Shown in pieces: positions 13,936-44,626 of a stretch of DNA of 64,000 bases. Position numbers and translations under genes: made by a program. This stretch comes from Actinomycetospora corticicola (GTDB lineage Bacteria > Actinomycetota > Actinomycetes > Mycobacteriales > Pseudonocardiaceae), in contig NZ_JACCBN010000001.1 in the NCBI RefSeq assembly GCF_013409505.1, positions 5,890,001 to 5,954,000 of the forward strand. Reading direction: 5' to 3'. The notes under the pieces were generated by a model. It was not told the origin of the DNA and did not search any database. It was given only the letters and a program-made list of their open reading frames with translations. Every line of letters begins with the position of its first letter. The first letter of the stretch is position 1.

Positions 13936-13953
13936 CGGTTGACCTCTCAGCCG
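13936..13953 (+). promoter_or_regulatory. 5' leader hairpin, family H, copy 1 (formate dehydrogenase)
   Basis: CGGTTG-ACCTCT-CAGCCG, a 6-bp stem with a 6-base loop, 49 bases before the GTG start counted from its GGTTG. The loop plus the preceding G (GACCTCT, 13941-13947) is a perfect 7-base complement of AGAGGTC (13975-13981), which contains the ribosome binding site. Seven related hairpins occur in the window. Confidence 0.6.
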
Positions 13954-13985
13954 GATCCGACCCGTCGTCGTCCGAGAGGTCTGCC

Positions 13986-16900
13986 GTGGATCCGTTGGAG
14001 CTCGTCCGTCGTTGGCCCGTGGTCCGCCAGCTCACCGGAGGCGACCCGCTCGGGCGGGGCGAGGCCGTGCGCTCGAACGCCCCGGAGCCCTGGAAGCCCC
14101 GCACGGACGAGGCGGACACCGTCACCCGGTCGATCTGCCCGTTCTGCGCGGTCGGCTGCGGGCAGAAGGTCTACTCGAAGCAGGGCCGGGTCACGCAGAT
14201 CGAGGGCGACCCCGACTCGCCGATCAGCCGCGGCCGGCTCTGCCCCCGCGGCTCGTCGAGCCTGTCGCTGGTCACCTCGCCGTCGCGCATCACGAAGGTC
14301 CGCTACCGGCGTCCCGGCGGGACCGACTGGGAGGACCTCGACCTCGACACGGCGATGGACATGATCGCCGACCGCGTGGTGGACACCCGCGCCCGGACCT
14401 GGCAGGACACCGACGACGAGGGCCGCGTGCTGAACCGGACCCTCGGGTTCGCCCACCTCGGCGGCGCCACCCTGGACAACGAGGAGAACTACCTCCTCAT
14501 GAAGCTCTACACCGCGCTCGGCGCCGTCCAGGTGGAGAACCAGGCGCGCATGTGACACAGCTCCACCGTCCCCGGTCTGGGGACCAGCTTCGGGCGCGGC
14601 GGCGCCACCAACTCCCAGCAGGACATCGCGCAGGCCGACTGCGTGGTCCTGGAGGGCTCGAACATGGCGGAGGCCCACCCGGTGGGCTTCCAGTGGGTGA
14701 TGGAGGCCAAGCGCCGCGGCGCGAAGATCATCCACGTCGACCCGCGCTTCACCCGCACCTCCGCGGTGGCCGACACCCACGTGCCGATCCGTCCCGGGAC
14801 GGACATCGCGTTCCTCGGTGGACTGATCAACCACGTGCTGTCGAACGAACGCGACTTCCGGGACTACGTCGTGGCCTACACCAACGCCCCGATGCTCACC
14901 CGCGAGGGATTCGTCGACGCGGGTGACGACGACGGGCTGTTCTCCGGCTGGGACCCCGAGACGCGCAGCTACGACACCTCGACCTGGCAGTACGAGGGCG
15001 TCGAGGTGGCGGCCGCCTCGGGCAACCGGGACCGGTGGGGGAGCGGCGACCCGGAGACCCACCGGGTCAGCCACCTGCTCGGGCAGTCCGAGAGCACCGG
15101 GTCGGGCGGGGCGACGCTGCGCGGCGACCCGGTCCGCGACGACACGCTCCAGCACCCGCGGTGCGTCTACCAGGTGCTCAAGCGGCACTTCGCGCGCTAC
15201 ACCCCGGAGATGGTGTCGTCGGTGTGCGGGATGAGCCCCGAGCAGTTCACTGAGGTCGCGGAGGCGATCTGCGCGGACTCCGGACGCGAGCGCACGACGA
15301 TGTGGGTCTACTCCGTCGGCTGGACGCAGCACACCGTCGGCGTGCAGTACATCCGGTGCGCCTCGATCCTGCAGGCACTGCTGGGGAACATGGGGCGCCC
15401 CGGTGGCGGGATCATGGCGCTGCGGGGGCACGCGACGATCCAGGGTTCGACGGACATCCCGATGCTCTACGACCTGCTGCCGGGCTACATCCCGATGCCG
15501 AACGCCCACAAGGAGATGCACCTCCCCGACTTCCTCGCCGCGGACGCCGCACAGAAGGGCTTCTGGGGCAACATGCCCGCCTACATGATCAGCATGCTCA
15601 AGGCGTGGTGGGGTGGGGCGGCGACCGCGGAGAACGACTACTACTTCGACCGGATGCCGCGGATCACCGGCGACCACTCCACGTTCCCGACCGTGCTGAA
15701 CATGATCGACGGCCGCTGCGAGGGCTACTTCGTCCTCGGGGAGAACCCGGCGGTCGGCACCACCAACTCCAAGCAGCAGCGCCACGGGCTGTCGAACCTG
15801 AGATGGCTCGTCGTGCGGGATCTGCAGGAGAACGAGACCGCGACGTTCTGGAAGAACGGCCCCGAGATCGAGACCGGGGAGATGCGCACCGAGGACATCG
15901 ACACCGAGGTCTTCCTGCTCCCCGCGGCCACGCACATCGAGAAGGCCGGCTCGTTCACCAACACCCAACGACTGCTGCAGTGGCGCCACCAGGCGGTCCA
16001 GCCACCGGGCGACGCCCGCAGCGACCTCTGGTTCGTCCACGAGCTCGGACACCGCATCCGCGCCCGGCTCGCGGCCTCGCAGCTCGACCGGGACCGCCCG
16101 ATCCTCGACCTGACCTGGGACTACCCGACCGAGGGTCCGCACGCGGAGCCCGACGCGCACGCGGTGCTCGCCGAGATCTCGGGCTACCGGGTCGCCGACG
16201 GCACGCCGGTCGACGGGTACACCGACCTGCGCGACGACGGGTCCACGGCCTGCGGGTGCTGGATCTACTCCGGCGTGTACGCCGACGGCGTCAACCAGGC
16301 CGCGCGGCGGACGCCGGCGGGCGGGGAGAGCCCGGCCGCGCTGGAGTGGGGCTGGGCGTGGCCGATGAACCGGCGGGTGCTCTACAACCGCGCGTCGGCC
16401 GACCCCGAGGGCCGGCCGTGGAGCGAGCGCAAGGCCTACGTGTGGTGGGACGAGGAGGCGCAGCGCTGGACCGGGCACGACGTCCCGGACTTCGAGGCCG
16501 ACAAGCCTCCGTCGTACCGGCCGCCCGAGGGGGCGGTGGCGCAGGACGCGATCGGCGGCGACGAGCCGTTCATCATGCAGGCCGACGGCCGCGCGTGGCT
16601 CTACGTGCCGACCGGCCTGGCCGACGGTCCGCTCCCGGTGCACTACGAACCGGAGGAGTCGCCGAGCCGCAACGCGATGCACCCCCGCACCCGCGCGAAC
16701 CCGGTCCGGGAGCGGTTCGACCGGCCGGACAACCGGTACAACCCGCCGGACGGCGAGCCGGGGTCGGAGGTCTACCCGATCGCGTTCTCGACCTTCCGGA
16801 TCGCCGAGCACCACACGGCGGGCGGGATGAGCCGGTGGACGCCCTACCTCGCGGAGCTGGCGCCCGAGATGTTCGTCGAGGTCTCCCCGGCGCTGGCCGC

Positions 16901-17231
16901 CGAGCGGGGGCTCGAACACACCGGGTGGGCCACCATCGTCACCGCGCGGTCGGCGATCGAGGCCCGGGTGATCGTCACCGAACGGTGCAAGCCCCTGCGG
17001 ATCGACGGGCGGGTGGTGCACCAGATCGGGCTGCCCTGGCACTGGGGGCCGAACGGCCTCGTCACGGGCGACGCGGCGAACGAGCTGATCGGCATCTCGC
17101 TCGATCCCAACGTCCACATCATGAGCACCAAGACCGGGACCTGCGACGTCGTCGCCGGGCGGCGTCCGCGGGGGCCCGCGCTCCCGGAGTTCGTCGCGTC
17201 CTATCGACGTCGGGCCGGTATCGGGAATTAA
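13986..17231 (+). CDS. fdhA: Selenocysteine-containing formate dehydrogenase, catalytic (molybdopterin) subunit
   Basis: 1,081 residues if the in-frame TGA at 14553-14555 (codon 190) is read as selenocysteine. Residues 51-58 (CPFCAVGC) and Cys86 bind a 4Fe-4S cluster. The local sequence ENQARM-Sec-HSSTV matches the active site of FDH-N/FDH-H, and TSFGRGGATNSQQDI, GSNMAEAHPVGFQW and the C-terminal MGD-binding region (HQIGLPWHWGPNGL) follow normally. It would oxidise formate to CO2 with a Mo or W bis-MGD centre. No Tat signal is seen, so a cytoplasmic location is likely. No iron-sulfur or cytochrome partner subunit adjoins it, and no sel genes are in the window. Confidence 0.93.
14553..14584 (+). 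promoter_or_regulatory. SECIS element with recoded UGA
   Basis: TGA at 14553-14555 is followed by a perfect 6-bp stem, GTCCCC (14568-14573) and GGGGAC (14579-14584), closing the loop GGTCT. Counting the U of UGA as 1, the loop G and U fall at positions 23 and 24, the same register as the SelB-contacted bases of E. coli fdhF as I recall it. This argues strongly for selenocysteine insertion. Confidence 0.9.
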
Positions 17232-17243
17232 CGTGCGCCTGGT

Positions 17244-17268
17244 GTGAGCTGCGGGTCGGATCGGGTTA
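17244..17268 (+). promoter_or_regulatory. Possible SigB/SigF-type promoter
   Basis: GTGA (17244-17247), 15 bases, then GGGTTA (17263-17268), nine bases before the ATG at 17277. The fit to actinobacterial general-stress promoters is partial, and the leader would be almost absent. Confidence 0.3.
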
Positions 17269-17276
17269 TCTGGGCC

Positions 17277-17879
17277 ATGAGCGAGCGATCGACCGATTAC
17301 GACCCCGCCGCGCAGAGCGAGAACGCCGGGCGATCGCGCGCCCACGACGAGTCCGCCCAGGGGGCCGGACCGTACGTCCAGCCCGGGCACGACGAGCAGG
17401 GCAACCCGGTCCCGTCGGTGCCGCACGAGGGCGTCCTCGGTCGGATCGCCACCTCGATCCTCCTCGGGCAGAGCGTGGTGCTCGCGGTGCTCGCGATCTG
17501 GGCGTTCATCGCGAACGCCGTCTCCGGGAGCCCGGCGCAGGTCCTCAACCTGACGATCGGCCCGACGCACGCGACGCTGCTGGCCGCGACCGCGGTGCTG
17601 GGTGCCGCCTCGACGGTGACCCGGCGGTGGGTGCGCCGCTGGTGCGTGCTGCAGGTGCTGGCCTACCTCGTCATCTACCTGATCGGGCTCACGAGCCCGG
17701 GATGGTTGACGCTCGGCACCGCCGACCACTTCCTGCACCTCGCGCTGGCCCTCCTCGGCTTCGTGATGATGATGCTGTTCAGCGCCCGCATCGTGGAGCC
17801 GCCGCCCGGGCCGGAGCCCTACCCGAACAACCGCACGGACGACCCCGACGCCGAGGCGCAGCAGCCCGGGCAGGGCTGA
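17277..17879 (+). CDS. DUF4383-like four-helix membrane protein
   Basis: 200 residues. The first 55 are hydrophilic and acidic (QPGHDEQGNPVPSVPHEG), followed by four hydrophobic segments; the C-terminal 30 residues are Pro/Asp-rich. NLTIGPTHATLLAATAVLG and TADHFLHLALALLGF resemble DUF4383 proteins, small actinobacterial membrane proteins of unknown role that often sit in stress-induced regions. A candidate general-stress promoter lies immediately upstream. Confidence 0.65.
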   Translation: MSERSTDYDPAAQSENAGRSRAHDESAQGAGPYVQPGHDEQGNPVPSVPHEGVLGRIATSILLGQSVVLAVLAIWAFIANAVSGSPAQVLNLTIGPTHATLLAATAVLGAASTVTRRWVRRWCVLQVLAYLVIYLIGLTSPGWLTLGTADHFLHLALALLGFVMMMLFSARIVEPPPGPEPYPNNRTDDPDAEAQQPGQG

Positions 17880-17952
17880 GAACCGGGTGTGACGCCGCCG
17901 GGGGGCGGGGCACCCGCGCCGACCACCACCCTCCGGCGAGAGCGAGCGACCT

Positions 17953-18834
17953 GTGCGCCCCTTCGACGACATCGACCGGATCGCCGCCACCGAGGCGCTC
18001 GACCGCGTCGCCGCCCCCGCGCGCGACCTCGTCAACAAGCTCCTGACCAATCAGAAGGTCGCCGACGTCCTGCACGGCGTCCCGATCGGCCACCCGCTGC
18101 ACCCGATCCTCGCGCAGGCGTCCTTCGGCAGCTTCCTGTCCGCCGGCCTGCTCGACCTCGTGCCCCGCACCCGCCGTCCCGCCACCGCGCTCATCGGTGT
18201 CGGGCTCGTCGCGGCCGTCCCGACCGCCGCGGCAGGCTGGGCGGACTACTCGCAGGCCCACGAGGAGCGGCAGCGCGTCGGCATCGTGCACGCGGCCGCC
18301 AACATCGCGATGCTCTCCGGCTACGTCGTCTCGCTCGGGGCCCGCCTGCGCGGGCGCAGCACCCGCGGTGCTCTCTGGGGGTGGACCGCGCTCGCGATCG
18401 GCTCGGCGGGTGCCGCCCTCGGCGGCCACCTCAGCTACCACCAGGCCCTCGGGGCCAACCACGCCGAGGACTACCCGCACATCGGCCCGGAGGACTGGAC
18501 CGACGCCGGGACCCTCGAGGAGCTTCCCGACGGCGAGCCGGTGGAGCGTCGGGTCGGCGAGGTCCGGGTCGTCGTGGTGCGTCACGGGGACCGGATCCGC
18601 GCTCTCGGGCAGCGTTGCCCGCACGCGTCGGCCCCGCTGTCCGACGGCGAGCTCACCGACGTCGACGGCGACGCCTGCATCGAGTGCCCCTGGCACGGCA
18701 GCGTGTTCCGCCTCGAGGACGGCCGCGTCATGCGCGGCCCCGCGACCGCTCCCGCGGCGCCGTTCCCGGCCCGCGTGCGCGAGGGCCGGGTGGAGCTGCG
18801 CGTCGCGACCTGGCCGGGCGTCCCGGCCGGCTGA
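17953..18834 (+). CDS. DUF2231 membrane domain fused to a Rieske [2Fe-2S] domain
   Basis: 293 residues from GTG. Residues 1-170 hold four hydrophobic segments typical of DUF2231 (GHPLHPILAQASFGSFLSAG; LGGHLSYHQALG). Residues 185-285 are a Rieske ferredoxin domain with CPHASAPLSDGEL and CIECPWHGSVF, i.e. the CxH...CxxH ligands for a 2Fe-2S cluster. The fusion suggests a membrane-bound electron carrier or a redox sensor. The DUF2231 His residues could bind haem, but that is inference. Confidence 0.85.
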   Translation: MRPFDDIDRIAATEALDRVAAPARDLVNKLLTNQKVADVLHGVPIGHPLHPILAQASFGSFLSAGLLDLVPRTRRPATALIGVGLVAAVPTAAAGWADYSQAHEERQRVGIVHAAANIAMLSGYVVSLGARLRGRSTRGALWGWTALAIGSAGAALGGHLSYHQALGANHAEDYPHIGPEDWTDAGTLEELPDGEPVERRVGEVRVVVVRHGDRIRALGQRCPHASAPLSDGELTDVDGDACIECPWHGSVFRLEDGRVMRGPATAPAAPFPARVREGRVELRVATWPGVPAG

Positions 18835-18887
18835 GCCGACCGCCTCCCACGCCGAGGTGCGGGGCCGCGCGGCGACGTGATCCGTGC

Positions 18888-18922
18888 GGTCGAGGGTCGA
18901 GGGTCGAGGGTCGAGGGTCGAG
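18888..18922. repeat. Heptanucleotide tandem repeat (GGTCGAG)5
   Basis: Five perfect copies of GGTCGAG, with a sixth imperfect copy (GGTCGCG) after it, inside the 254-bp gap between the Rieske and SDR genes. The rest of that gap holds no gene that I can support. The number of units could vary by slippage. Confidence 0.9.
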
Positions 18923-20181: not shown

Positions 20182-20775
20182 TCAGCTGCGGAACAGGTCC
20201 CGCACCCTGTCCACCAGGCCCGCGCCCGGAGCCGCCGCCGCGAGGGCCGCGCCCTCGCGCGGGGCGTGCGGGTGCGGGTGGGTCGGCGCCGTGCGCGCCG
20301 TCCTCGCCGCCCTGGCGCCGGCGTCCCGCAGTTCCCCGGCCGGGCAGGCCGCGGCCAACGCGGGGAACACGTGGCTCTCGAGCTCACCGGCGTGCTGGGT
20401 CACGAGGGCGTCCACGATCTTGAGGTGGATCCAGAAGTCGCCTTTCATCGGGAGCCGTTCGAGCTGCTGCAGCTGGTACTCGAGCTTCTGCTGCCCGGCG
20501 TCGATGCGGTCGGCCGCCGCGTCGCCCTCGGGGACGTAGCGCCGCACGAGGGGCAGCAGGTGGATCCGCTCGGCCACCGAGTGCCGCACCAGGTCGGTGA
20601 TGAGCTCACGGGCCGTCTCGACCGGGTCGCCCGCGCCGGACCCGGTCCAGCGCTGCAGGGCGAGCACGAGGCCTGCCGCATCGCGGTGCTCACGCGTCAG
20701 GCGCAGCAGCAGGTCCTCGCCGTCGGTCTCGGGCGCGGGACGGGTGGTGCTCTGGTCGGCGGTGCTCGGCAGCAT
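20182..20775 (-). CDS. Hemerythrin HHE-domain protein
   Basis: 197 residues. The four-helix core includes LTREHRDAAGLVLALQRW, DLVRHSVAERIHLLPLVRR, EYQLQQLERLP and DALVTQHAGELESHVFPAL, with His and Glu placed as in HHE cation-binding domains that hold a di-iron site. A Pro/His-rich linker and a short C-terminal helix (LVDRVRDLFRS) follow. Likely role is iron or oxygen/NO sensing or handling. The ATG was chosen over longer frames because AGGAGGG lies just upstream; the leader carries hairpin family H and a SigB-like promoter. Confidence 0.85.
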   Translation of the reverse strand: MLPSTADQSTTRPAPETDGEDLLLRLTREHRDAAGLVLALQRWTGSGAGDPVETARELITDLVRHSVAERIHLLPLVRRYVPEGDAAADRIDAGQQKLEYQLQQLERLPMKGDFWIHLKIVDALVTQHAGELESHVFPALAAACPAGELRDAGARAARTARTAPTHPHPHAPREGAALAAAAPGAGLVDRVRDLFRS

Positions 20776-20800: not shown

Positions 20801-20822
20801 GACGGCTGGGAGGTCAACCGTC
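20801..20822 (-). promoter_or_regulatory. 5' leader hairpin, family H, copy 2 (hemerythrin)
   Basis: Read on the minus strand: GACGGTTG-ACCTCC-CAGCCGTC, an 8-bp stem with a loop identical to the anti-Shine-Dalgarno core. GGAGG of the ribosome site lies about 20 bases downstream. GGTTG begins 45 bases before the ATG. Confidence 0.6.
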
Positions 20823-20828
20823 CGGCGC

Positions 20829-20854
20829 GTACCCGGCGGCCCCGATCCGGCAAC
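20829..20854 (-). promoter_or_regulatory. Candidate SigB/SigF-type promoter of the hemerythrin gene
   Basis: Minus strand: GTTG, 16 bases, then GGGTAC. This agrees with the GTTT-N15/16-GGGTAT pattern of actinobacterial general-stress sigma factors. The transcript would begin a few bases before the family H hairpin. Confidence 0.45.
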
Positions 20855-20861: not shown

Positions 20862-21269
20862 TCAGCGCGACCACTCGTCTCTCCAGGGCAGGAAACGGCT
20901 CGTGCGCAGGGCGTCGACGAGCCGGTCGGCGACGTCGACGAGGACGTCGTCGGCATGGGGGGCGGCGGTGGCGATCGCGGGCAGGCCGATCAGCGCCGAC
21001 CCGCACCGCCCGTCCTGCCGCCGGGCCACGAACGGCTGGTCACCCGCGATCGAGGGCAGCGCGACCACCGCCAGGGTGAGGTCCCACCCGTCGTGCGGAC
21101 CCGGGCACGAGCTCTTCTCCCAGGCGACGTCGAGGTCGGTCTCGCGTTCCAGGCGGGCGGCGACGACCCGCGCCAGGGCCGACACCGCAGCACCCGGCAC
21201 CGATCCCGCGGCCCACAGCCCGAGGACGAGCGGACGGCCGCCGCAGGGGCCGCCCGCCGTCGGTGTCAT
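20862..21269 (-). CDS. Hypothetical protein, translationally coupled to an upstream 32-residue ORF
   Basis: 135 residues, apparently globular and soluble: LVLGLWAAGSVPGAAVSALARVVAARLE, then CPGPHDGWDLTLAVVALPSI, then VDVADRLVDALRTSRFLPWRDEW. No family recognised. Its ATG overlaps the TGA of a short upstream frame (ATGA), suggesting coupled translation. The pair is the last unit after the SARP regulator in the same direction. Confidence 0.6.
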   Translation of the reverse strand: MTPTAGGPCGGRPLVLGLWAAGSVPGAAVSALARVVAARLERETDLDVAWEKSSCPGPHDGWDLTLAVVALPSIAGDQPFVARRQDGRCGSALIGLPAIATAAPHADDVLVDVADRLVDALRTSRFLPWRDEWSR

Positions 21270-21364
21270 CGACCCGCGGGCTGCGCACCCGAGAGCCGGG
21301 CGAGGTACTGCACCGATACGAGGTCGACGCCGACGTCGTCGAACCCGGTCTCGCCAGTGGCCAT
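21266..21364 (-). CDS. Small ORF of 32 residues
   Basis: ATG at 21364 with GGGAGG seven bases upstream; ends in TGA overlapping the next ATG by four bases. The peptide is acidic at the start (GETGFDDVGVDLVSVQYLARL). It is supported by the strong ribosome site, the coupled overlap and a family H hairpin 57 bases upstream. It could be a leader peptide or a genuine small protein. Confidence 0.5.
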   Translation of the reverse strand: MATGETGFDDVGVDLVSVQYLARLSGAQPAGR

Positions 21365-21401: not shown

Positions 21402-21423
21402 CCGGCTGGGCGAGGTCAACCGG
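21402..21423 (-). promoter_or_regulatory. 5' hairpin, family H, copy 3 (intercistronic)
   Basis: Minus strand: CCGGTTG-ACCTCGCC-CAGCCGG, a 7-bp stem with an 8-base loop. Its GGTTGA supplies the TGA stop of the SARP gene, and it precedes the 32-residue ORF. Being intercistronic, it argues for an RNA rather than a promoter role. Confidence 0.55.
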
Positions 21424-22156
21424 CGTGCCCGCGTGCGGCGCGGGTGACCGACGGCACGGCCCGTCGAAACGACGGATCGTCGACGACGCCGTCGAGGTGC
21501 TCGTCGATCACGCGGCGCAGGGCGGGAGAGGGTGCGAGATCGAGTTCCGAGTGGAGGAGCCGGCGGTACCCGTCGTACTGCCGCAGCGCCTCCACGACGT
21601 TGCCCTCGTCGAGGTGCACCTCGATCACCTCGCGCTGCGCGGTCTCGCGGAGCGGGTCGCACGCGACGGCGACCAGGCCGAGCCGCAGTGCGTCCGCGAA
21701 GCGCCCGGAGCGGCGGTGGGTCGCGCACAGGTCCTCCAGGGCGTGCAGGCGCAACTGCCGGAACCGTTCGCGCTCGGAGTCGACCCAGGGGTCGTCCCAG
21801 CCCGGCAGCAGGTCACCCGCGAGCAGGCGGTGCTCGGCGTCGGTGGCGGGGCCGGCCTCGAGGTCCCACAGGTCGATCCGGACGTGCGGGGCGATCGAGA
21901 CGTAGCCGTCGGCGGCCTCGGCCAGGGGCTGCTCCGCGACGCGGCGCAATCGCCACAACGTCGAGCGCAGGTTCCCCGCCGCCCGGTCCTCCCGATGATC
22001 GCCCCAGAGCGCCGCGGTGAGCTCCTCGCGGCGGACCGAGCGTCGGGCGAGGGAGAGGAACGCCATCAGGCGCTCGGCGCGGGGGGCGAGCAGCAGCGGC
22101 CGCTCGTCCTCGCGGCAGGTGAAGCGACCGATGACGGTCAACTGCACGGCGCACAT
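21416..22156 (-). CDS. SARP/AfsR-type transcriptional regulator with BTAD domain
   Basis: 246 residues. Residues about 5-95 form an OmpR-like winged helix (LMAFLSLARRSVRREELTA, ALWGD, LRSTLWRLRR); residues 95-235 are a bacterial transcriptional activation domain (LLPGWDDPWVDSERERFRQL, ALRLGLVAVACDPLRE, ALRQYDGYRRLLHSELDL). It has no ATPase or TPR extension, so it is a minimal SARP. Such proteins activate nearby genes by binding direct repeats; targets are unknown. Its leader carries a family H hairpin with a swapped base pair and a GTTT-type -35. Confidence 0.85.
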   Translation of the reverse strand: MCAVQLTVIGRFTCREDERPLLLAPRAERLMAFLSLARRSVRREELTAALWGDHREDRAAGNLRSTLWRLRRVAEQPLAEAADGYVSIAPHVRIDLWDLEAGPATDAEHRLLAGDLLPGWDDPWVDSERERFRQLRLHALEDLCATHRRSGRFADALRLGLVAVACDPLRETAQREVIEVHLDEGNVVEALRQYDGYRRLLHSELDLAPSPALRRVIDEHLDGVVDDPSFRRAVPSVTRAARGHAG

Positions 22157-22183: not shown

Positions 22184-22199
22184 GGCTCGCAGGTGAACC
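22184..22199 (-). promoter_or_regulatory. 5' leader hairpin, family H, copy 4 (SARP regulator)
   Basis: Minus strand: GGTTC-ACCTGC-GAGCC. The closing pair is C-G where most copies have G-C, a compensatory change that keeps the stem. GGTTC begins 43 bases before the ATG. Confidence 0.55.
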
Positions 22200-22215
22200 T
22201 CCTCCACCCGGGAGA

Positions 22216-22241
22216 TGACCCCCGCCGCGATGCGGGCAAAC
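22216..22241 (-). promoter_or_regulatory. Candidate SigB/SigF-type promoter of the SARP regulator
   Basis: Minus strand: GTTT, 16 bases, GGGTCA. The -35 is a perfect match to the general-stress consensus; the -10 differs in the last bases. Confidence 0.4.
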
Positions 22242-30381: not shown

Positions 30382-31203
30382 CTACAACGGGATCGTGTCG
30401 CCACGGCCGACGTAGTCCACCCGGTCCGCCCAGCCCCGCCGTTCCACCTCGGCGACGAAGTCCGACAACGGGGAGCGGAAGACGGTGTAGTCGTCGTAGT
30501 GCACCGGGGTGGCGCGCCGCGGCGCCAGGATCTCGAGCGCGTCCGCGCCCTGCCGACCGTCCATCGTCACCATCACGCCACCGGGCAACGTGGTGCCGCC
30601 CAGGTGCAGGACGGCACGGTCGACCTCGCCCACGCGCTCCGCGAGGTACTCGCGGATCCGATGGAGACCGTCGAACAGGAGGGTGTCGCCGGAGAGGTAG
30701 ATCCGCTGCACCGTGCACCCGCCCGCCGCGCGGAACTCCAGCAGGCTGCCCATCACGGGCGGCAGCAGCCGCTGCACCGGGTCGGGCGCGTGCCGGCCCG
30801 GCAGCGCCGTGACGGTGCACGTCGCACCGTCGGGGCCGGCGAGCACGTGGGACTCCCACGTCGTGAGTCCGATCGCCCGCGGGAAGCCGTGCCGGGTCTG
30901 CAGCCGCCGCGACGCGTGGCTCGTCGTGACGATCGGCGTGCTGCGCGGCAGCCGGCGGCGCGTCTCGCGGTCCCAGTGGTCGCCGTGCAGGTGCGAGAGC
31001 ACGACGGCGTCCACCGGCGCGAGCTCCTCGGGGGTCCACGCCGGGTCGGTCAGCCGCTTCGAGGTCAGGCCGTGCCCGAGCCAGGCCCGTTGCCCACGGT
31101 GCAGGAAGTTCGGGTCGGTGAGCACGCGCATCCCCGCGCACTCGAGCAGCACGGTCGCGGTCCCGACGAAGGAGAGCGTCCCCCCGGTTCCGGAATCCAT
31201 CAC
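30382..31203 (-). CDS. MBL-fold metallo-hydrolase (UlaG/RomA-like)
   Basis: 273 residues. VVLSHLHGDHWD is the HxHxDH zinc motif, TALPGRHAPD and YLSGDTLLFDGL supply later metal ligands, and VTMDGRQGADALEI and PVHYDDYTVFRSPLSDF are typical of the UlaG/NAPE-PLD-like branch. Probably hydrolyses a phosphodiester or lactone; substrate unknown. Its leader has a family H hairpin, and its start is GTG or the adjacent ATG. Divergent from otsA, with overlapping promoter candidates. Confidence 0.85.
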   Translation of the reverse strand: MMDSGTGGTLSFVGTATVLLECAGMRVLTDPNFLHRGQRAWLGHGLTSKRLTDPAWTPEELAPVDAVVLSHLHGDHWDRETRRRLPRSTPIVTTSHASRRLQTRHGFPRAIGLTTWESHVLAGPDGATCTVTALPGRHAPDPVQRLLPPVMGSLLEFRAAGGCTVQRIYLSGDTLLFDGLHRIREYLAERVGEVDRAVLHLGGTTLPGGVMVTMDGRQGADALEILAPRRATPVHYDDYTVFRSPLSDFVAEVERRGWADRVDYVGRGDTIPL

Positions 31204-31240: not shown

Positions 31241-31258
31241 CGGCTGGGGTGTCAACCG
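31241..31258 (-). promoter_or_regulatory. 5' leader hairpin, family H, copy 5 (metallo-hydrolase)
   Basis: Minus strand: CGGTTG-ACACCC-CAGCCG. The loop differs from other copies, and so does the ribosome site: CACCCC of the hairpin is complementary to GGGGTG just before the start codon. GGTTG begins 54 bases upstream. Confidence 0.6.
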
Positions 31259-31269
31259 GGGAGTGCGGA

Positions 31270-31295
31270 TAGCCCGCCCGCGGGCGTGCCGACAC
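31270..31295 (-). promoter_or_regulatory. Weak SigB/SigF-type promoter of the metallo-hydrolase
   Basis: Minus strand: GTGT, 16 bases, GGGCTA. It would place the transcript start a few bases before the hairpin. Confidence 0.3.
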
Positions 31296-32773: not shown

Positions 32774-33076
32774 TCAGCGCGGGAACAGGCTCCGCACCTG
32801 GTCGATCGCGAGGAACGCCTCCTCGGCCGAACCGGCCGCCACGTGGGCACTCGCGACGCCGATGACCGCGGCCGCCCGCCCGTCGGTGCCGTCCTCGCCG
32901 GACGCCGCGGCGGCCCGGGCGTGGGACAGCGCGGCCAGCAGCGTGCGGTCCTCGGTCACGCTGGCCGGGTCGCCGGTGATGAGCACGTGGGCGGCGGTCT
33001 CGGTCGCCTGGATGATGGCGCGCTGCGCCGGCGCGGAGCCGGCGGCGCGGGATACGGGGTCACGGTCGATCGTCAC
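32774..33076 (-). CDS. Small Ala-rich hypothetical protein
   Basis: 100 residues, helical, no membrane segment: RAIIQATETAAHVLITGD, then LLAALSHARAAAASG, then VIGVASAHVAAGSAEEAF. Unrecognised. It is notable for its control region: a family H hairpin and one of the best SigB-like promoters in the window. The GTG start follows GGGAGTGACCC. Confidence 0.6.
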   Translation of the reverse strand: MTIDRDPVSRAAGSAPAQRAIIQATETAAHVLITGDPASVTEDRTLLAALSHARAAAASGEDGTDGRAAAVIGVASAHVAAGSAEEAFLAIDQVRSLFPR

Positions 33077-33108: not shown

Positions 33109-33128
33109 CGGCTGGAAGCGGTCAACCG
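33109..33128 (-). promoter_or_regulatory. 5' leader hairpin, family H, copy 6
   Basis: Minus strand: CGGTTG-ACCGCTTC-CAGCCG, 6-bp stem and 8-base loop. CGCUUC of the loop can pair with GGAGUG of the ribosome site if two G-U pairs are allowed. GGTTG begins 51 bases before the GTG. Confidence 0.55.
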
Positions 33129-33139: not shown

Positions 33140-33164
33140 TTACCCGACGTGCGCCGCTTCACAC
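33140..33164 (-). promoter_or_regulatory. Candidate SigB/SigF-type promoter
   Basis: Minus strand: GTGT, 15 bases, GGGTAA, then 11 bases to the family H hairpin. A good match to the general-stress pattern. Confidence 0.45.
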
Positions 33165-33272: not shown

Positions 33273-34415
33273 GTGACCTCGTCCGACACCTCCACCGCCC
33301 GCGTCACTCCGACCGAGCAGGGCGAACTCGTGGTGGGCCTGCTCGCCGATCCCGGCCTCGCCACCGACCTCGTGGCCCGCGTCGCCACCGATCTGCCCGG
33401 CGCCCTCGCCTCCGCCGCCCCCGACCACCGCTGGCACGTGGAGACCGCGCAGGGACCGGTCGGGCTCGACTCCGAGGGCCTGCTGCCGATGCTGCGCCGC
33501 GGCGCACGGTTGCGTCAGGACCACGACTGGGACGTGGTCGTCCTCGTCACCGATCTACCGCGCCGCGCCGGCACGCAGCCGCTGGTGTCGGACTACGGCT
33601 CCGACGAGGGCGTCGGGCTCATCTCGCTGCCCGCGCTCGGCACCGTGAGCCTGCGGCGGCGGTTGCGCCGTGCGGTGGTCGACCTCGTCGCCGACGGCCT
33701 CGTCGGTCGACGTGCGGCCGCGCCCGTGACCGGGCCGCACTGGCCGCGGTTCTCCCCGCCCGTCGCCCGGATCGCCTCCGAGGAGCCGGGGATCGACTCG
33801 CACCTGGCGTTGCAGGGCACCCGCGGGACGGTGCGGCTGCTCGGCGGGCTGGTGCGGGCGAACCGGCCGTGGCGGCTCGTGCCCTCCCTCTCGCCCGCGC
33901 TGGCCGCCGCGGCCGCCGGGGCCGCCTTCGGCGTCTTCTACTCGAACATCTGGCAGCTCGCGGCCGTGTTGTCGGTCCAGCGCCTCGCCGTCGTCGCGGT
34001 CCTCGCGGTGACCGCGATGGCGACGTGGCTCGTCGTCGACAACGGGCTCTGGGAACGCGCCGCCGCCCGCCACCACCGTCGCGAGGCGACCCTGTTCAAC
34101 GCGGCCACCGCCGCCACGATCGGCCTCGGCGTGGCGTGCATGGCCACCGTGCTGATCGTCATGACCACCCTCGCCGCCCTGCTGGTCATCCCGCCGTCGC
34201 TGCTGCCCGGCCCCGACGGCTGGCCCGACGTGCTGACGGTCTACCTGCGCCTCGGCGTGCTCTCCGGGTCGATGGGCATCGTCGCCGGCGCGCTCGGATC
34301 CGGTCTGACCAGCCCCGAGGCCGTGCGTCAGGCCGCGTACAGCACGCGGGAGCAGCAACGCCGGGCCCTCATCGACGACGAGGAGCCGAACGCCCACGCC
34401 GACGACGCGGCTTGA
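33273..34415 (+). CDS. Membrane protein with large soluble N-terminal domain
   Basis: 380 residues from GTG (GGAG upstream). Residues 1-185 are soluble and alpha/beta (VVGLLADPGLATDLVARVATDL; WDVVVLVTDLPRR; GVGLISLPALGTVSLRRRL); residues 200-350 contain four hydrophobic segments in two pairs (ALAAAAAGAAFGVFYSNIW; VAVLAVTAMATWLVV; then TIGLGVACMATVLIVM and LRLGVLSGSMGIVAGALG). No family name is certain. The arrangement suggests a receptor or transport regulator, but there is no direct evidence. Confidence 0.7.
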   Translation: MTSSDTSTARVTPTEQGELVVGLLADPGLATDLVARVATDLPGALASAAPDHRWHVETAQGPVGLDSEGLLPMLRRGARLRQDHDWDVVVLVTDLPRRAGTQPLVSDYGSDEGVGLISLPALGTVSLRRRLRRAVVDLVADGLVGRRAAAPVTGPHWPRFSPPVARIASEEPGIDSHLALQGTRGTVRLLGGLVRANRPWRLVPSLSPALAAAAAGAAFGVFYSNIWQLAAVLSVQRLAVVAVLAVTAMATWLVVDNGLWERAAARHHRREATLFNAATAATIGLGVACMATVLIVMTTLAALLVIPPSLLPGPDGWPDVLTVYLRLGVLSGSMGIVAGALGSGLTSPEAVRQAAYSTREQQRRALIDDEEPNAHADDAA

Positions 34416-37391: not shown

Positions 37392-39054
<1,663 letters not shown>

Positions 39055-39066
39055 CGCGGTCCGCGT

Positions 39067-39106: not shown

Positions 39107-39154
39107 GCCCGCGTCCGACCCCCAGCCCGACCACCCCGCCGACGAGAGGACCGG

Positions 39155-40843
39155 ATGGTCGGAGCCGGCCCCGTCCCGCCACTGCCCCACGACGACCCCG
39201 CGACGGACCTCCTCCGGGCCCGCGACGCCCTCCTCGCGCCCCCGCCCGGCGCACGCCGCCTCGCCCCCGCGGCCCTCCGGGCCGCCCTCGTCGACCTCCA
39301 CGACCTCTGGCTCGCCACGCGGGCCCGCGCGCTCGGGGTGGGTCGGGGCAGCGCCCTCGTCGCGATCGGGTCCCTCGGCCGCCGGGAGCTCGCCCCGTTC
39401 TCGGTGCCCGACCTCCTCCTGGTGCACGACGGCACGCGGCCCGGGCCGCACGGCATCCGCGCGGTCGCCGCGGCGCTCGGGGCGCCGGTGCACGCGGTGT
39501 GCACCGTCGGCGAGGCGGTGGAGGCCTCGCTGGCGGATCTGCCGACCGCGCTGGGCCTGCTCGACGCCCGCCTCGTCGCCGGCGACGCCGAGCTGGCGGA
39601 GCGGCTGGTGGGGACGGCCCGGCGCGCCTGGCGCGCGGGTGCCGCGACCCGCGGCGCCGACCTCGTCGAGCTCACCCACGACCGCTGGCGGCGGGCCGGG
39701 GACGTCGCCCACCGTGTGGAGCCCGACCTCGTGCACGGGCGGGGCGGGTTGCGCGACCTCACGCTGCTCGACGCCCTGGTCACCGCGGGGACGACGGACC
39801 GGCTCCCGCCCGAGATCCGGGCGGCCCGCGGGGTGCTGCTCGACCTGCGCACCGACCTGCACCGGCACGCGGGCCGCGCGCGGGACGTCCTGCGCGCGGA
39901 GGACGCGCCCGACCTCGCCGAGCCGCACGACCTCCGGCGCGCGCTCGGGGGCGCGGGCCGCGCCGTGGCGGCGGCCACCGGCGCGGCGCTGCGGGCCCTC
40001 CGTCCGCCCACGTGGGGGTCGGCGCCCGCGTCCGGGTCCGACCTCGGCGACGGTGTCGTCGTCCACGCCGGTGAGGTGACGCTCGCGCGGGGCGCGAGCA
40101 CGGCGCGCGACCCGGTGCTCGTGCTGCGCCTGGCCGCCGCCGCCGCGCGGTCCGGCCGTCCGATGGCGCCGTCGGCCCTGCGACGGCTCGCCGACGCCGC
40201 GCCCGAGCTCCGGGCGCCCTGGCCCGACGCCGCGCGTGCCGCTCTGCTCGCGCTGCTGGGCGCGGGGGAGGGACTGGTCGAGGTGGTGGAGGCGCTCGAC
40301 CGCGCCGGGTTGTGGGGCCGGCTCCTGCCGGAGTGGGGCGCCGTGCGGGATCTCCCGTCGTCCCGCTCGCGGCACGCCTTCACCGTCGGGCGCCACCTGC
40401 TCGAGACGACCCGGTGGGCGGGCGTCGTGGCGGAGCGGGTGGTGCGGCCCGACCTGCTGCTGCTCGCAGCACTCGTGCACGATCTCGGGCGGGGCCGCGC
40501 GGAGGACCCCGTCGTCGTCGCGACCACGCTGGCCGGTCACGTCGGGCGACGGCTCGGCCTGCACGACGACGACGTCCGGCTCCTCGCGGCGGTGGTGCGC
40601 CACCAGGACCTGCTGCCCCGCACCGCTCTCCGGTGCGACCCCGACGACCCGGCGACCGTCCGTGGCGTCCTCGACGCACTGGGCGGCGACCCACAGCTGC
40701 TCGAGCTCCTCCACGCCCTGGCCGAGGCGGACGCCCGCGGTGCCGGGCCGGACCTGTGGACCCCGTGGCGGGCGCGCCTCGTCGGCGACCTCGTGGCCCG
40801 GTGCCGGGCCGCCGTGCGGGGCGTGCCGGCGACGCGGCGATAG
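39155..40843 (+). CDS. GlnD-like PII-modifying protein, reduced: degenerate nucleotidyltransferase site and no ACT domains
   Basis: 562 residues, against roughly 800 for typical GlnD. The nucleotidyltransferase motif, normally GGxGRxELxPxSDxD, reads GSLGRRELAPFSVPDLLL: the first metal-binding Asp is Val. A helical linker (LVHGRGGLRDLTLLDALV, conserved in GlnD) follows. The HD domain looks intact: RHAFTVGRHLLETT, LLAALVHDLGRG, VVRHQDLL and ALAEADARG. The two C-terminal ACT glutamine sensors are missing. Its position after amtB-glnB points to PII as substrate; removal of the modifying group may be its main activity. The ATG follows AGAGGACCGG. Confidence 0.82.
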   Translation: MVGAGPVPPLPHDDPATDLLRARDALLAPPPGARRLAPAALRAALVDLHDLWLATRARALGVGRGSALVAIGSLGRRELAPFSVPDLLLVHDGTRPGPHGIRAVAAALGAPVHAVCTVGEAVEASLADLPTALGLLDARLVAGDAELAERLVGTARRAWRAGAATRGADLVELTHDRWRRAGDVAHRVEPDLVHGRGGLRDLTLLDALVTAGTTDRLPPEIRAARGVLLDLRTDLHRHAGRARDVLRAEDAPDLAEPHDLRRALGGAGRAVAAATGAALRALRPPTWGSAPASGSDLGDGVVVHAGEVTLARGASTARDPVLVLRLAAAAARSGRPMAPSALRRLADAAPELRAPWPDAARAALLALLGAGEGLVEVVEALDRAGLWGRLLPEWGAVRDLPSSRSRHAFTVGRHLLETTRWAGVVAERVVRPDLLLLAALVHDLGRGRAEDPVVVATTLAGHVGRRLGLHDDDVRLLAAVVRHQDLLPRTALRCDPDDPATVRGVLDALGGDPQLLELLHALAEADARGAGPDLWTPWRARLVGDLVARCRAAVRGVPATRR

Positions 40844-40850
40844 GCGCGCC

Positions 40851-40870
40851 GGGGTGAGGCCGCTCACCCC
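40851..40870 (+). terminator. Hairpin after the glnD-like gene
   Basis: GGGGTGAG and CTCACCCC (8 bp) around GCCG, eight bases after the stop codon. Confidence 0.65.
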
Positions 40871-40886
40871 GCCCCCGTGGAGGGAG

Positions 40887-41706
40887 GGATCGTCGGAGAT
40901 CACCCGCGAACTGCAGCGCCTGGGCGGGGTCGCCGACGTCGTCACGCCGCTCGTCGGCCGCCTCGCCGCCGTGCTCAAGGGCACGTTCGAGCAGGCCGAG
41001 CCCGTCGACGAGGCGATCCTCGGCGACCTGGTGCTCGAGCACCAGCTGCACGATCGCGCGACCTACCTCCGCGGCCCTCGCCGTGTCCGCGCACGACACC
41101 TCGGTGCGGTCGCTGGCCGACCGGCTCATCGAGGCGCACCGTGCCACCGTCGAGTGGCTGACCACCGTGCTGGCCGAGCACGCGCTGGGCGGCCCGCCCG
41201 CGCTGCGCGCGACGCCGACGCAGGTCGTCGCCGGCGGGGTCACCCGCGCGGTGAACTACCCGGTGCGGTTCGCCCGTGACCAGGTCAACCGCGCGTTCGG
41301 CCGCGTCCAGCGCACGGGGGAGCAGGTCCGCAGCGGGGTCACCCAGGTCGCCGGCAAGGCCGCGCAGTTCAGCGACAACGCCCGCGACGTCCTCGTCACC
41401 GGTCGGGACGCCTCGTTGGAGCGTGCCGAGCACGTCGCTCGCGCGCAGGGCGACGCGGCCACGGCCCGCTCGGTGCACGAGACCCGCGCGGGGCTCGGCG
41501 CCCTCGAGGCCTCCGAGCTGCCGATCGCCGGGTACGAGAAGCTCGGTGCCGCTGAGGCCGTGCAGGCGATCAAGCAGCTCACCACGGTCGACGCCCTGAA
41601 CACGGTGGTCCACTACGAGGAGGCCCACAAGAACCGCAGCAGCGCGGTGTCCGCGGCGCAGACGCGGCACGCGGCCCTCGCTCAGGAGGTCGTCGGCCTG
41701 CGCTGA
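40887..41706 (+). CDS. Ferritin-like-domain protein, apparently frameshifted
   Basis: Two frames join at about 41070-41075. The first encodes EITRELQRLGGVADVV, LVGRLAAVLKGTFEQAEPVD and LGDLVLEHQLHDRATYL; the second continues ALAVSAHDTSVRSLADRL, IEAHRATVEWLTTVLAEHAL and a long helical tail to 41706. Together they look like a ferritin-like helical bundle (ExxH-type helices) with a membrane-adjacent amphipathic tail. One extra G would explain the shift. The first frame also lacks a convincing start codon after the upstream terminator. It may be a pseudogene or contain sequence errors. Confidence 0.55.
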
Positions 41707-41721
41707 CGTCACCTCCCCGCC

Positions 41722-41754
41722 GGTGCGCGGCACCCTCCCCGGGTGCCGCGCACC
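41722..41754 (+). terminator. 14-bp hairpin terminator
   Basis: GGTGCGCGGCACCC and GGGTGCCGCGCACC around a 5-base loop, 16 bases after the ferritin-like gene. Confidence 0.8.
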
Positions 41755-41869
41755 CGTGTGTCCGGACCTGTCACCGATCGGGACGAACCGTTCACGTCGG
41801 GCGTCGGCCCACGGAGCGGGGACGGTGCCAGGATGGACCTGGGGGATCGGCCGTACGGGGGAGAACGAC

Positions 41870-42691
41870 GTGCTGCAGTGCTGTCCCAACGGGGCACGGG
41901 CCGGAGGCGACACCCCGGCCCTGCCCGCGACGGCCGCCGATCTGGCCCGGGACGCCGCCGCGGTCGCCGCCCTGGGCGTGCGCAGCTTCCACGTCCACCC
42001 GCGCGACGACCAGGGCCGCGAGAGCCTCGAACCGGCCGTGGTCGCCGAGACGGTGGGGGCGATCCGCCGGGCCGCACCCGCGCTCGAGATCGGGGTCCCG
42101 CTCGCGCGATGGGTGGAGCCGAACGCGTTCCGGCGGACCGAGATCGCCCAGGAGTGGGCGCGCCTGCCGCGTCACCAGCGCCCTGACGTCATCGCGGTCA
42201 GCGTGCACGAACGCGGCTGGGAGTCCGTCTGCGAGGCCGTCGCCTCCGTCGGACTCGGCATCGAGCTCGGCGTGTGGACCACCGGCGACGCCGTCCAGCT
42301 GCGCCTGGCCGGGGTGCCGGTCAACACGGTGCGGATCGCGGTCGAGGTGACCGTGACCGACCCGGACCACGCCGTCGCCGAGGCCGTCCGCCTCCTGCGC
42401 GCGCTGCAGCCGATGCCGGTGCCCGTGCCGGTGCTGCTCCACGGCGAGGAGGACGGCGCCTGGCCCGTGCTGGAGTACGCGCGCCGCCAGGGCTTCGACA
42501 CCCGGATGGGGTTCGAGGACACCCTCTACGGTCCGGACGGGATCTGGATCGCGACCGGCAACGAGGAGCTCATCCGGTTCGCCCTCGGCCAGCCGGTCGC
42601 CCCCCGGACGGGGCCGCGCCGCAGCCCGCGCCGCGGTCTGTTCGGCGGCGGGTTCGGGTTCGGCGGCCCGCGCGCCGCGCACCGGGGCTGA
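41870..42691 (+). CDS. BKACE family (DUF849) beta-keto acid cleavage enzyme
   Basis: 273 residues from GTG with GGGGGAGAAC upstream. GVRSFHVHPRDDQGRESL contains the HxH zinc motif of BKACE; EIGVPLARW, DVIAVSVHERGW and GFEDTLYGPDG follow the TIM-barrel order. Members condense a beta-keto acid with acetyl-CoA to give acetoacetate and a CoA ester. The last 20 residues form an unusual Gly/Phe/Arg tail (GLFGGGFGFGGPRA) that is not part of the fold as I know it. Substrate unknown. Confidence 0.8.
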   Translation: MLQCCPNGARAGGDTPALPATAADLARDAAAVAALGVRSFHVHPRDDQGRESLEPAVVAETVGAIRRAAPALEIGVPLARWVEPNAFRRTEIAQEWARLPRHQRPDVIAVSVHERGWESVCEAVASVGLGIELGVWTTGDAVQLRLAGVPVNTVRIAVEVTVTDPDHAVAEAVRLLRALQPMPVPVPVLLHGEEDGAWPVLEYARRQGFDTRMGFEDTLYGPDGIWIATGNEELIRFALGQPVAPRTGPRRSPRRGLFGGGFGFGGPRAAHRG

Positions 42692-42710
42692 ACGGCGCCC
42701 CGCCGGGGCG

Positions 42711-43199
42711 TCAGTCCGGCGGTCGGGTGATGTCGGAGAACGCCCGGGCGAGGCGACGTTGCTGCGCCGCGGTGGGGACCAGCGGCGGACGGTCGGTGAG
42801 CGGGACGACGCGGTCGATGTCGCACGGCTCGATCCGGCAGGCCTCGAACAACGCGTCGTCGATGCGGATCGGGACCCTCGTCCGGTGCGCGAGGCTCAGG
42901 GCCTCCACCCACGAGGTCGCCCGGCCGGAGGCGGGGGCCGGCACCAGCCCGTCGGTCTGCTCCACCACCTCGACCACCGGACACAGCCCGCCGTCGTCCC
43001 GGACGATCCGGATGGTGACCTCCCGTCCCGCCGGCACCGTCCCCAGCCACGGGTCGAGGAGGCGCACCAGTCCCAGCAGTTCCCCCGATCCGAGCGGCAC
43101 CGTCATGAGCCGCGGGACGTCGCCGTCGTCGGAGAGCACCGCGCAGGGCTCGTCGAACATCGTGCGGCGCGCGACCGCGACGAGGCCGACGACAGCCAT
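42711..43199 (-). CDS. Hypothetical protein
   Basis: 162 residues, soluble. DDGDVPRLMTVPLGSGELL, REVTIRIVRDDGGLCPVVEVV and RTRVPIRIDDALFEACRIE are the most regular segments; the last 30 residues are Arg/Pro-rich. No family recognised. Divergently placed regulators nearby suggest no clear role. Confidence 0.55.
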   Translation of the reverse strand: MAVVGLVAVARRTMFDEPCAVLSDDGDVPRLMTVPLGSGELLGLVRLLDPWLGTVPAGREVTIRIVRDDGGLCPVVEVVEQTDGLVPAPASGRATSWVEALSLAHRTRVPIRIDDALFEACRIEPCDIDRVVPLTDRPPLVPTAAQQRRLARAFSDITRPPD

Positions 43200-43337
43200 C
43201 CCCGGTCCTCTCCACGGGCGCGGCCGGGAGGCAACGCCCGGGTCGCACGTCGGTCCGGTGTCGACGGCGCCGCGGGGTGGACGGTCGTCGCTGGTCCACC
43301 CAGCATCGCACGGCGCCCCGGTCCGCCCGGGTCCGGC

Positions 43338-44063
43338 TCAGCCCCGCGCGGCGTCCTCCACCAGCCACCGGGCGACCTCGAGGAGCTTGAGGTTGGTGTG
43401 TTGCGAGGCGGCCACGAGCCGGTCGAACGCCACGTCGGGCCCGATGCCGTCGCGCTGCATCAGCACCCCCTTGGCCTGCCCGATGAGGTCCCGCGAGCAC
43501 ACGGCCTGGTCGAGCCCCGCCATGCGGCGGGCGGCGTGCAGCGCCATGGCGGCGGGCATCGCGAAGGCGGACAGCTGGGCCGCTGCGGTCCCGGGCAGAG
43601 CGCTGTCGCGGGCGTAGAGCGTGAGCGCGGCCAGCGGGCGGTCGCGGGGCACGAGGGCGATCGAGAGCAGGGCGGTGACCCCGCGTTCCCGGGCCGCCGG
43701 GGCGAACGCGGGCCACCGCGCGTCGGCGCCGGTGAGGTCGGTGACCTCGATGACGGCGGAACCCGCGGCCCGGAGCATGTCGACGGCGGGCCCCTCGCCC
43801 AGGTCGATCTGCAGGCGGTCGAACTCGGTGGCGGGCGTCGGAGAGCCGGCGGGCTCCGGATGCCCCCGACGGCAGAGGACGAGACCCGCGCACTCGGCGC
43901 CGGGCGCCATCCGCAGCGCCAGCGAGGTGATCGCGGTGAGCGTCGCCGCCAGGGCGTCCTCACGGTCGCTCAGACCGGCGTTGAGTGCACTCGCGGCGAC
44001 GGCGAGTTCGACCGCGGGCGTCTCGACGGGCACGGCTGGAAGGAGAGTCTGTCGCGGCTGCAT
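43338..44063 (-). CDS. GAF-ANTAR RNA-binding antiterminator-type regulator
   Basis: 241 residues. Residues about 25-175 are a GAF domain (LSDREDALAATLTAITSLAL; LQIDLGEGPAVDML; VTALLSIALVPRDRPLAAL). The last 55 are an ANTAR domain (SRDLIGQAKGVLMQRDGIG, AFDRLVAASQHTNLKLLEV). ANTAR domains bind paired hairpins with six-base loops in 5' leaders and prevent termination. Signal unknown. The last residues match a second such protein at 48902. Confidence 0.87.
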   Translation of the reverse strand: MQPRQTLLPAVPVETPAVELAVAASALNAGLSDREDALAATLTAITSLALRMAPGAECAGLVLCRRGHPEPAGSPTPATEFDRLQIDLGEGPAVDMLRAAGSAVIEVTDLTGADARWPAFAPAARERGVTALLSIALVPRDRPLAALTLYARDSALPGTAAAQLSAFAMPAAMALHAARRMAGLDQAVCSRDLIGQAKGVLMQRDGIGPDVAFDRLVAASQHTNLKLLEVARWLVEDAARG

Positions 44064-44193
44064 CGTCGCCCCCGGGGGTCGGCTGCGATTCCCGCCTCAC
44101 TGGTGAAACAGAGTCTTCTGGGGCGCACAGCCTAGCCGTGCAACGCACGGATCGACACCCCGATCGCGGTCCGGCCGTGCCACCATGGGCGGA

Positions 44194-44209
44194 GGTTGAC
44201 CCCCCAGCC
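44194..44209 (+). promoter_or_regulatory. 5' leader hairpin, family H, copy 7 (STAS-like gene)
   Basis: GGTTG-ACCCCC-CAGCC, 41 bases before the GTG start. CCCC of the loop is complementary to the GGGG of the ribosome site GGGGAGGG. Confidence 0.55.
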
Positions 44210-44234
44210 GCCGACCACGGCGAGGGGAGGGATC

Positions 44235-44594
44235 GTGCGGGTGCCCAGTCCCACGGTCGATCTGGTGGTCCGGCGCCCGGCTGCGGGTCGGGTCGTGATC
44301 CACGTGTCCGGTGTCCCGGGGCGGGCCGACGTCGCGGTCCTGCGGCGCACCCTCGACGAGGAGCTCGACCGGAGCCCGGCGCTCGTCGTGGTGTCGGTGG
44401 ACCGGAGCGGCATCACCCCCGACCTCCGCGCAATCCTCGGCGCGGCCCGCGACCGGGCCCGGTCCGGCGGCGGCGGGCTGCGGGTGGTGCGCACCGACCC
44501 CGACCGGTCGGTCGAGGTGACCGACCTCCTGGGCGAGGCCCCGGGCGGGGTCGGAGCCGGGTCTCCGGATCCGTCCGGACTTCGCGTGCCGTGA
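44235..44594 (+). CDS. STAS-like small regulator
   Basis: 119 residues from GTG with GGGGAGGG upstream. VVRRPAAGRVVIHVSGVPGRADVAVL, SPALVVVSVDRSGITPDLRAI and RSGGGGLRVVRTDPDRSVEV follow the strand-helix order of a STAS fold. The segment DRSGIT could offer a serine but is not the standard DSSG. Probably a partner-binding regulator; not certain. It precedes the cheB operon in the same direction. Confidence 0.6.
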   Translation: MRVPSPTVDLVVRRPAAGRVVIHVSGVPGRADVAVLRRTLDEELDRSPALVVVSVDRSGITPDLRAILGAARDRARSGGGGLRVVRTDPDRSVEVTDLLGEAPGGVGAGSPDPSGLRVP

Positions 44595-44606
44595 TATCAC
44601 CGTCGT

Positions 44607-44626
44607 GGGTTGACCCGCTCCAGCCC
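44607..44626 (+). promoter_or_regulatory. 5' leader hairpin, family H, copy 8 (cheB operon)
   Basis: GGGTTG-ACCCGCTC-CAGCCC. The outermost pair is G-C where most copies have C-G, a second compensatory change. GGTTG begins 48 bases before the GTG of a 12-codon leader frame. Confidence 0.58.

Follow-up and report, generated by a model that had tools for sequence, protein, structure and literature searches.

CIRCE/HrcA is a DNA operator, palindromic and of fixed spacing, that forms a regulon-wide inverted repeat between the promoter and the Shine-Dalgarno sequence (SD), and in the ROSE and fourU RNA thermometers the genes of a stress regulon have leader hairpins in common. The ANTAR-target RNAs of actinobacteria are defined (PMC8164766) by two stem-loops with a linker of 2–25 nt and hexaloops that carry A at the first position (A1) and G at the fourth (G4). 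Another leader RNA of an actinobacterium is the dauA motif of Streptomyces, which stands before a STAS gene (PMC11109978, as outlined there). Here we describe family H, a small hairpin found repeatedly in a stretch of 64,000 nt of the genome of Actinomycetospora corticicola (contig NZ_JACCBN010000001.1, positions 5,890,001 to 5,954,000; the window, from here on), which looks like an apparently undescribed shared control handle in Actinomycetospora. This one structured element is located between promoter and start codon in 17 unrelated gene groups (62 sites). We favour the reading, with a probability of roughly 0.5, that it is a regulon-wide 5'-terminal cis-acting RNA element that would be read by a predicted trans-acting factor.

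A preliminary description of the window had placed eight hairpins within ca. 31 kb of it. All of them are present, 0–3 nt at most from where they had been located:

13937–13952, + strand: hairpin H1, 49 nt 5' of the GTG of the first part of formate dehydrogenase alpha (13986–14555, +)
20804–20819, − strand: hairpin H2, 44 nt 5' of the hemerythrin ATG (20182–20775, −, PF01814)
21404–21421, − strand: hairpin H3, 57 nt 5' of an open reading frame (ORF) of 32 aa (21266–21364, −)
22184–22199, − strand: hairpin H4, of the GGTTC/GAGCC type, 43 nt 5' of the SARP/BTAD ATG (21416–22156, −)
31242–31257, − strand: hairpin H5, 5' of a metallo-hydrolase (30382–31200, −, PF12706)
33110–33127, − strand: hairpin H6, 51 nt 5' of a family-less protein of 100 aa (32774–33076, −)
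44194–44209, + strand: hairpin H7, 41 nt 5' of a protein of 119 aa (44235–44594, +) that is weakly STAS-like in relatives
44608–44625, + strand: hairpin H8, with an outer G-C pair, in the leader of cheB (44691–45698, +, PF01339)

The pattern GGTTSAC-N4-6-SAGCC has eight matches in the window against 0.08 expected, and none of 100 shuffles reached eight. The looser GGTTS-N6-8-SAGCC has 10 against 1.92 expected (0/100 shuffles reach 10), the two extra matches, at 33847 and 37605, being without AC and outside the eight. Over the whole source genome GGTTGACN3-7CAGCC matched 14 times, compared with two for the backward control, and seven of the 14 were inside this 31 kb. The distance of 41–57 nt from the GG to the start codon that had been proposed holds at seven sites with their likely starts, and at the eighth, the cheB leader, the GG is 48 nt before the GTG of a mini-ORF and 54 nt before ATG. 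The window shuffles, the backward control and the sense placement before starts described below lead us to reject a chance origin of the hairpins.

The same GGTTGACN3-7CAGCC pattern was found in all 17 other Actinomycetospora genomes, always above the backward control, with a margin that was small in some (5 vs. 3 in G010, 9 vs. 6 in G015); in several of them the matches were clustered on one contig, and many single matches were coding. The clusters fetched from relatives had the same order of -10-like box, hairpin, SD and start codon. For 49 motif matches (window plus 20 fetched loci) an SD-preceded start was found 36–75 nt downstream in 31 cases in sense and in one in antisense, the base rate at random positions being 5%. 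Enrichment before starts in relatives, as the preliminary description would lead one to expect, is thus found within the genus (31/49 in sense) and not order-wide. A covariance-model search of 200 genomes of the family, carried out at E ≤ 0.03 with stricter filters that lose weak matches, gave matches in 12, of which nine were among the 10 sampled genomes of the genus and three among the 190 others, and these three (L156–L158), seen in a 200-base view only, were judged weak. Similarly, GGGTA-N8-17-RGTTSA-N5-9-AGCC had 36 matches against none in the control in the 10 genus genomes (24 accepted sites, five copies of one tRNA gene, by eye, and seven something else), and among the matches listed for the 190 other genomes there were 0–5 in each, compared with 0–6 in the control. 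Neither search gave a clear sign of the element in these 190 genomes outside the genus.

By hand we accepted 64 sites from 13 of the 18 Actinomycetospora genomes, 62 of which were used for the statistics (L265 and L088:14364 were accepted and left out of them). The 62 fall into 17 gene groups, which were delimited by eye on the similarity of the proteins, a number that gives modest power. Pattern matches without a fitting SD and start were dropped by eye, mostly because they were coding or longer inverted repeats (for example L031, L101-7392, L101-17687, two in L139, L087-15324, L088-19545, L094-14260, L098+10374, two in L103, two in L104, L136 and L142). Others that do match were also left out (L086-12428, L057-694, which is before a ctaD-like gene, L102+6344, L116, L133 and L229). 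There are two sets of 49 rows, which differ by one (L034 in one, L057 in the other); L057-694 was kept in the 49-row set for the first SD-pairing and ANTAR tests and dropped later. Outside the counts, G009 has at L102:6344 (+) a strict match to the hairpin, 74 nt 5' of a gene that by eye is WhiB-like. The longer inverted repeats at L139:1018 (+), L139:1129 (+) and L101:7392 (−) are of the CCCTGGCC...GGTCAGGG type, which has the core letters in common and no gene start; they are perhaps terminators or small repeats.

The consensus of the element, over the 62 sites, is (G/A)GUU(G/C), a loop of 6–8 nt that starts with A, and (C/G)AG(C/U)(C/U). The loop has 6, 7 or 8 nt in 34, 14 and 14 sites, respectively, so that the lengths of 6 or 8 that had been reported are right for the window, the genus having 7 as well. 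Its first letter is A in 62/62, its second is C in 91% (group-weighted) and the rest is C-rich (C makes up 230 of the 352 letters after the first A). Pair 1 is GC in 56 sites, AC in five and AU in one; pair 2 is GC in 61 and GU in one; pair 3 is U.G and pair 4 U-A in all 62; pair 5 is GC in 54, CC in five and CG in three. The changes amount to one from G-C to A-U, at pair 1, and three from G-C to C-G, at pair 5, in two groups. Both compensatory changes first pointed out in the window exist, namely GGTTC/GAGCC (22184) and the outer G-C (44607). The outer pair, which no search pattern included, forms in 51 sites (CG 34, GC 11, UG 6, other 11), with a value of 0.80 observed vs. 0.59 in group shuffles (p = 0.001). 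Pairs further outward gave p = 0.79, 0.054 and 0.60; a single hairpin with one outer pair is all that is conserved in the stretch tested. In an alignment of 49 rows, 96.3% of the cells pair and 0/500 shuffles reach the covariation score, with further pair types unremarkable (125/500 shuffles); because that alignment was mostly chosen by pattern, we put the weight on the outer pair and on the leaders reached through proteins. Covariation in the stem, which had been claimed from the window, is present but thin (the outer pair, one A-U and three C-G changes), because the core hardly varies. The invariance of the U.G, the U-A and the loop A, while the outer pair and the loop drift, fits a sequence-specific reading.

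These data also bear on whether the conserved letters belong to RNA or to DNA. Their fixed place after the -10 motif would also suit a DNA-binding regulator, i.e., an operator across the transcription start of the CIRCE/HrcA kind with the hairpin incidental. However, the half-sites are unequal (GGTT vs. GGCT), the spacing shifts by single bases as shown by the loop lengths, the outer pair keeps pairing and the orientation is fixed (31 sense vs. one antisense), and for these reasons we regard a DNA operator as improbable.

Since most sites had been found by their letters, leaders were also sought through the downstream proteins. Relatives of the window's hemerythrin (44–92% identity) are found in 6 of the 18 genomes, counting the window's, and the hairpin is in 6/6 of the leaders. 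Formate dehydrogenase alpha gave 30 matches in the genus, 11 of type 1, 18 of type 2 and one of type 3. The hairpin was found in 11/11 leaders of type 1 (83–99% identity) and in the single copy of type 3, whereas it was in 0/18 leaders of type 2 (71–75% identity), with the limit that the scan expression used for formate dehydrogenase itself demands GTT and AG and that type-2 copies were scanned with a similar one. The type-2 genes are preceded by a tRNA-like sequence in 18/18 cases, a tRNA-Sec in the 4/4 that were checked. The protein of 77 aa has the hairpin in the leaders of 8/8 genomes. Neither the UU/AG core nor the loop A varied among the 25 protein-led leaders.

In the window the genes behind the hairpins belong to the families formate dehydrogenase (a fragment, below the cut-off), hemerythrin, BTAD/SARP, metallo-hydrolase and CheB, and the 100-aa (H6) and 119-aa (H7) proteins have no Pfam or NCBIfam family. 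The latter had been called STAS-like; it has no such match, although a relative's protein with the same type of leader has a weak STAS_2 match below the cut-off. Across the genus the hairpins further precede genes for STAS, a TPP enzyme, an enolase-superfamily enzyme, cytochrome c, cytochrome P450 and a weak STAS_2 protein, together with a protein that by eye is hydrolase-like and family-less proteins that are small or resemble lipoproteins. Redox and stress signalling prevail among the genes served. The small ORF noted at 21364 exists and is actually a 32-aa version of the 77-aa protein of relatives: the gene (21266–21364, −) has lost 45 internal residues in frame and kept its hairpin leader. 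The formate dehydrogenase alpha gene has an in-frame TGA at 14553–14555 (ENQARM*HSS), as in selenocysteine enzymes. A mini-ORF of 12 codons (44656–44694, +) is located between H8 and cheB, its stop overlapping the cheB start at 44691, and an 11-codon counterpart is found in L096 near 8650 (−).

The preliminary description also saw -10-like boxes in four cases, and we find them before the hemerythrin, 100-aa, metallo-hydrolase and SARP hairpins:

20829–20834, − strand: SigB-like -10 box GGGTAC, before H2
22215–22220, − strand: -10-like box GGTCAT, before H4, with GTTTG further upstream
31269–31274, − strand: -10-like box GGCTAT, before H5
33140–33145, − strand: SigB-like -10 box GGGTAA, before H6

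Of 49 sites, 17 have GGGTA no more than 30 nt upstream, compared with ca. 0.4 expected from the same loci. An unsupervised search for one motif in the 34 bases upstream returned (G/T)G(G/C)(T/C)A(C/G)CC, which we take to be the -10 of SigB-group promoters, and 47 of the 62 copies end 7–12 nt before the stem. GTTT or GTGT boxes are visible further upstream in several leaders. The start codon, picked by script, is 40–73 nt from the GG (median 48). With the -10 motif 7–12 nt upstream of the stem, the mRNAs should begin at the hairpin or just before it, a start that is predicted from the position of the box. A different hairpin was found in the leader of a gene that we presume to be CsbD-like (NCBIfam MBP-1 match below the cut-off), behind a GGGGTAC box (window 51650–51662, −; L086:8226, +; L092:2792, +). 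Its loop GAGCAGA is constant and its arms covary in the three genomes (GGC/GCC, CGC/GCG, AC/GT).

The sense placement before starts and the covariation of the outer pair support the cis-acting RNA element that had been proposed from the window. In the mechanism that we favour, RNA polymerase with a sigma factor of the SigB group would start ca. 7 nt past the -10 box, and the mRNA would begin with the stem GGUU(G/C)/(C/G)AGCC or a few bases 5' of it. That the stem keeps its letters, including a wobble that is obligatory, in what is expected to be the 5' end of the RNA suggests that it is read by a factor; this trans-acting factor, most likely an RNA-binding protein, would recognise the fixed stem letters, the U.G wobble and the first A of the loop. 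The hairpin would be directly upstream of the 30S loading site, and therefore the factor, whatever the direction of its control, would set the translation or the lifetime of the whole set of mRNAs, as a second control layer above the sigma factor. It could also be imagined that a stem at the 5' end merely shields stress mRNAs from decay or aids loading, with no specific reader. The predicted position of the hairpin agrees with this, and so does the different hairpin borne by the CsbD-like gene. However, a purely structural role would not fix the U.G and U-A in 62/62 sites or the loop A, and we consider a passive stem quite unlikely, if somewhat less so than the DNA operator.

Several observations weigh against a regulon-wide element read by a factor. 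Ten of the 62 sites have one core mismatch each, C.C in five formate dehydrogenase leaders and A.C in five small-protein leaders, which also speaks against covariation; in the leaders of the 77-aa gene with A.C, additional outer pairs CCG/CGG lengthen the stem (by eye). The -10 motif is absent at the usual distance in 15/62 sites, and the search that returned it, made with no shuffled control, forced one copy per leader. Most sites came to light through their letters, and acceptance was by hand. Finally, no candidate for the trans factor was found, co-occurrence having been checked for ANTAR genes only.

The ANTAR proteins of the window were the obvious candidates, given that a GAF-ANTAR gene (43338–44063, −) adjoins H7, that a second ANTAR match is located at 48932–49087 (−) and that the H loops start with A, as those of ANTAR targets do. 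However, only 26 of the 49 rows have a six-nt loop, each of them with A1 and 3/26 with G4, and a second hairpin with an A1/G4 hexaloop was found in 5/49 leaders. ANTAR matches number 6–25 per genus genome, and their number does not track the element. We reject an ANTAR target, which the published two-hairpin definition with A1/G4 hexaloops (PMC8164766) does not fit; this makes it a very remote prospect and bears out the doubt already raised in the preliminary description.

A further explanation would dispense with a dedicated protein: the gene's own SD would be masked in a self-contained switch by the C-rich loop, acting either by itself, as an H-type pseudoknot, or together with one arm, as an alternative stem. 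The composition of the loops agrees with it, and the own leader pairs better than those of other groups (p = 0.024 with 49 rows; p = 0.0004–0.046 in six versions with 48 rows, the p = 0.0004 version having used a fixed TTG for all rows; with 62 rows p = 0.003 for the loop with an arm and p = 0.041 for the whole hairpin). A control in which the loop was set against the linker's first 15 nt gave p = 0.97–0.99. However, the loop alone gave p = 0.074 with 62 rows, the signal having weakened once the protein-led sites joined, and a second control, the hairpin against the first 12 coding bases, came to p = 0.064, near some of the signals. Moreover, four of the 62 loops are AGCGAG, with no SD match, and a switch of this kind leaves the invariant stem letters unexplained. 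We have dropped the SD pseudoknot as a general mechanism, given the p = 0.074 for the loop alone and the contradicting AGCGAG loops. A self-contained switch appears unlikely, though less so than the other alternatives, and SD masking as a part of the mechanism has weak and mixed support. Within the factor-read element that we favour, the C-rich loop of some members may additionally pair with the gene's own SD.

A more far-reaching and tentative proposal, which we would put below the element itself and above any of the alternatives, is that a single RNA-binding factor and a SigB-type sigma factor would make up a two-key stress regulon in this one genus, in which the factor would recognise a minimal hairpin (the stem with its U.G plus the loop A) at the 5' end of the mRNAs made by the sigma factor, promoter and leader co-evolved and unrelated genes joined by gaining both. 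If true, this would add a new class of leader elements read by a protein, and with it a new layer of global post-transcriptional control, to the actinobacteria, where to our knowledge global RNA regulators are poorly known. The element is short and sharply defined, and type-1 and type-2 formate dehydrogenase provide an internal control, so that its partner could be fished for directly.

Rfam had no match over the gathering threshold in the window, a permissive Rfam search of 44150–44720 gave one match at chance level, and our literature search returned no report of a family H element. Like CIRCE/HrcA, family H is regulon-wide and is located between promoter and SD, but its arms are unequal (U.G) and its spacing is variable. 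It shares with the ROSE and fourU thermometers a possible masking of the SD, but here the conserved stem does not include the SD, and pairing between loop and SD is not general (p = 0.003–0.074, 62 rows). The ANTAR-target RNAs of actinobacteria are also leader hairpins before unrelated genes, with loops that start with A, and can be near the ribosome binding site; going by PMC8164766, they are two hexaloop hairpins with G4, whereas family H has a single hairpin, whose loop of 6–8 nt rarely carries G4. The dauA motif resembles it in being an actinobacterial leader RNA that precedes a STAS gene and, going by the description in PMC11109978, would be set apart as a larger three-stem junction that includes the SD and is associated with one gene, in contrast to a small single hairpin before at least 17 gene groups. 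One leader element common to many unrelated genes of an apparent single sigma-factor regulon is unusual, and judged from its sequence family H would be a cis-regulatory leader RNA that is unusual in its tiny size, its regulon-wide occurrence and its tie to a single class of promoters.

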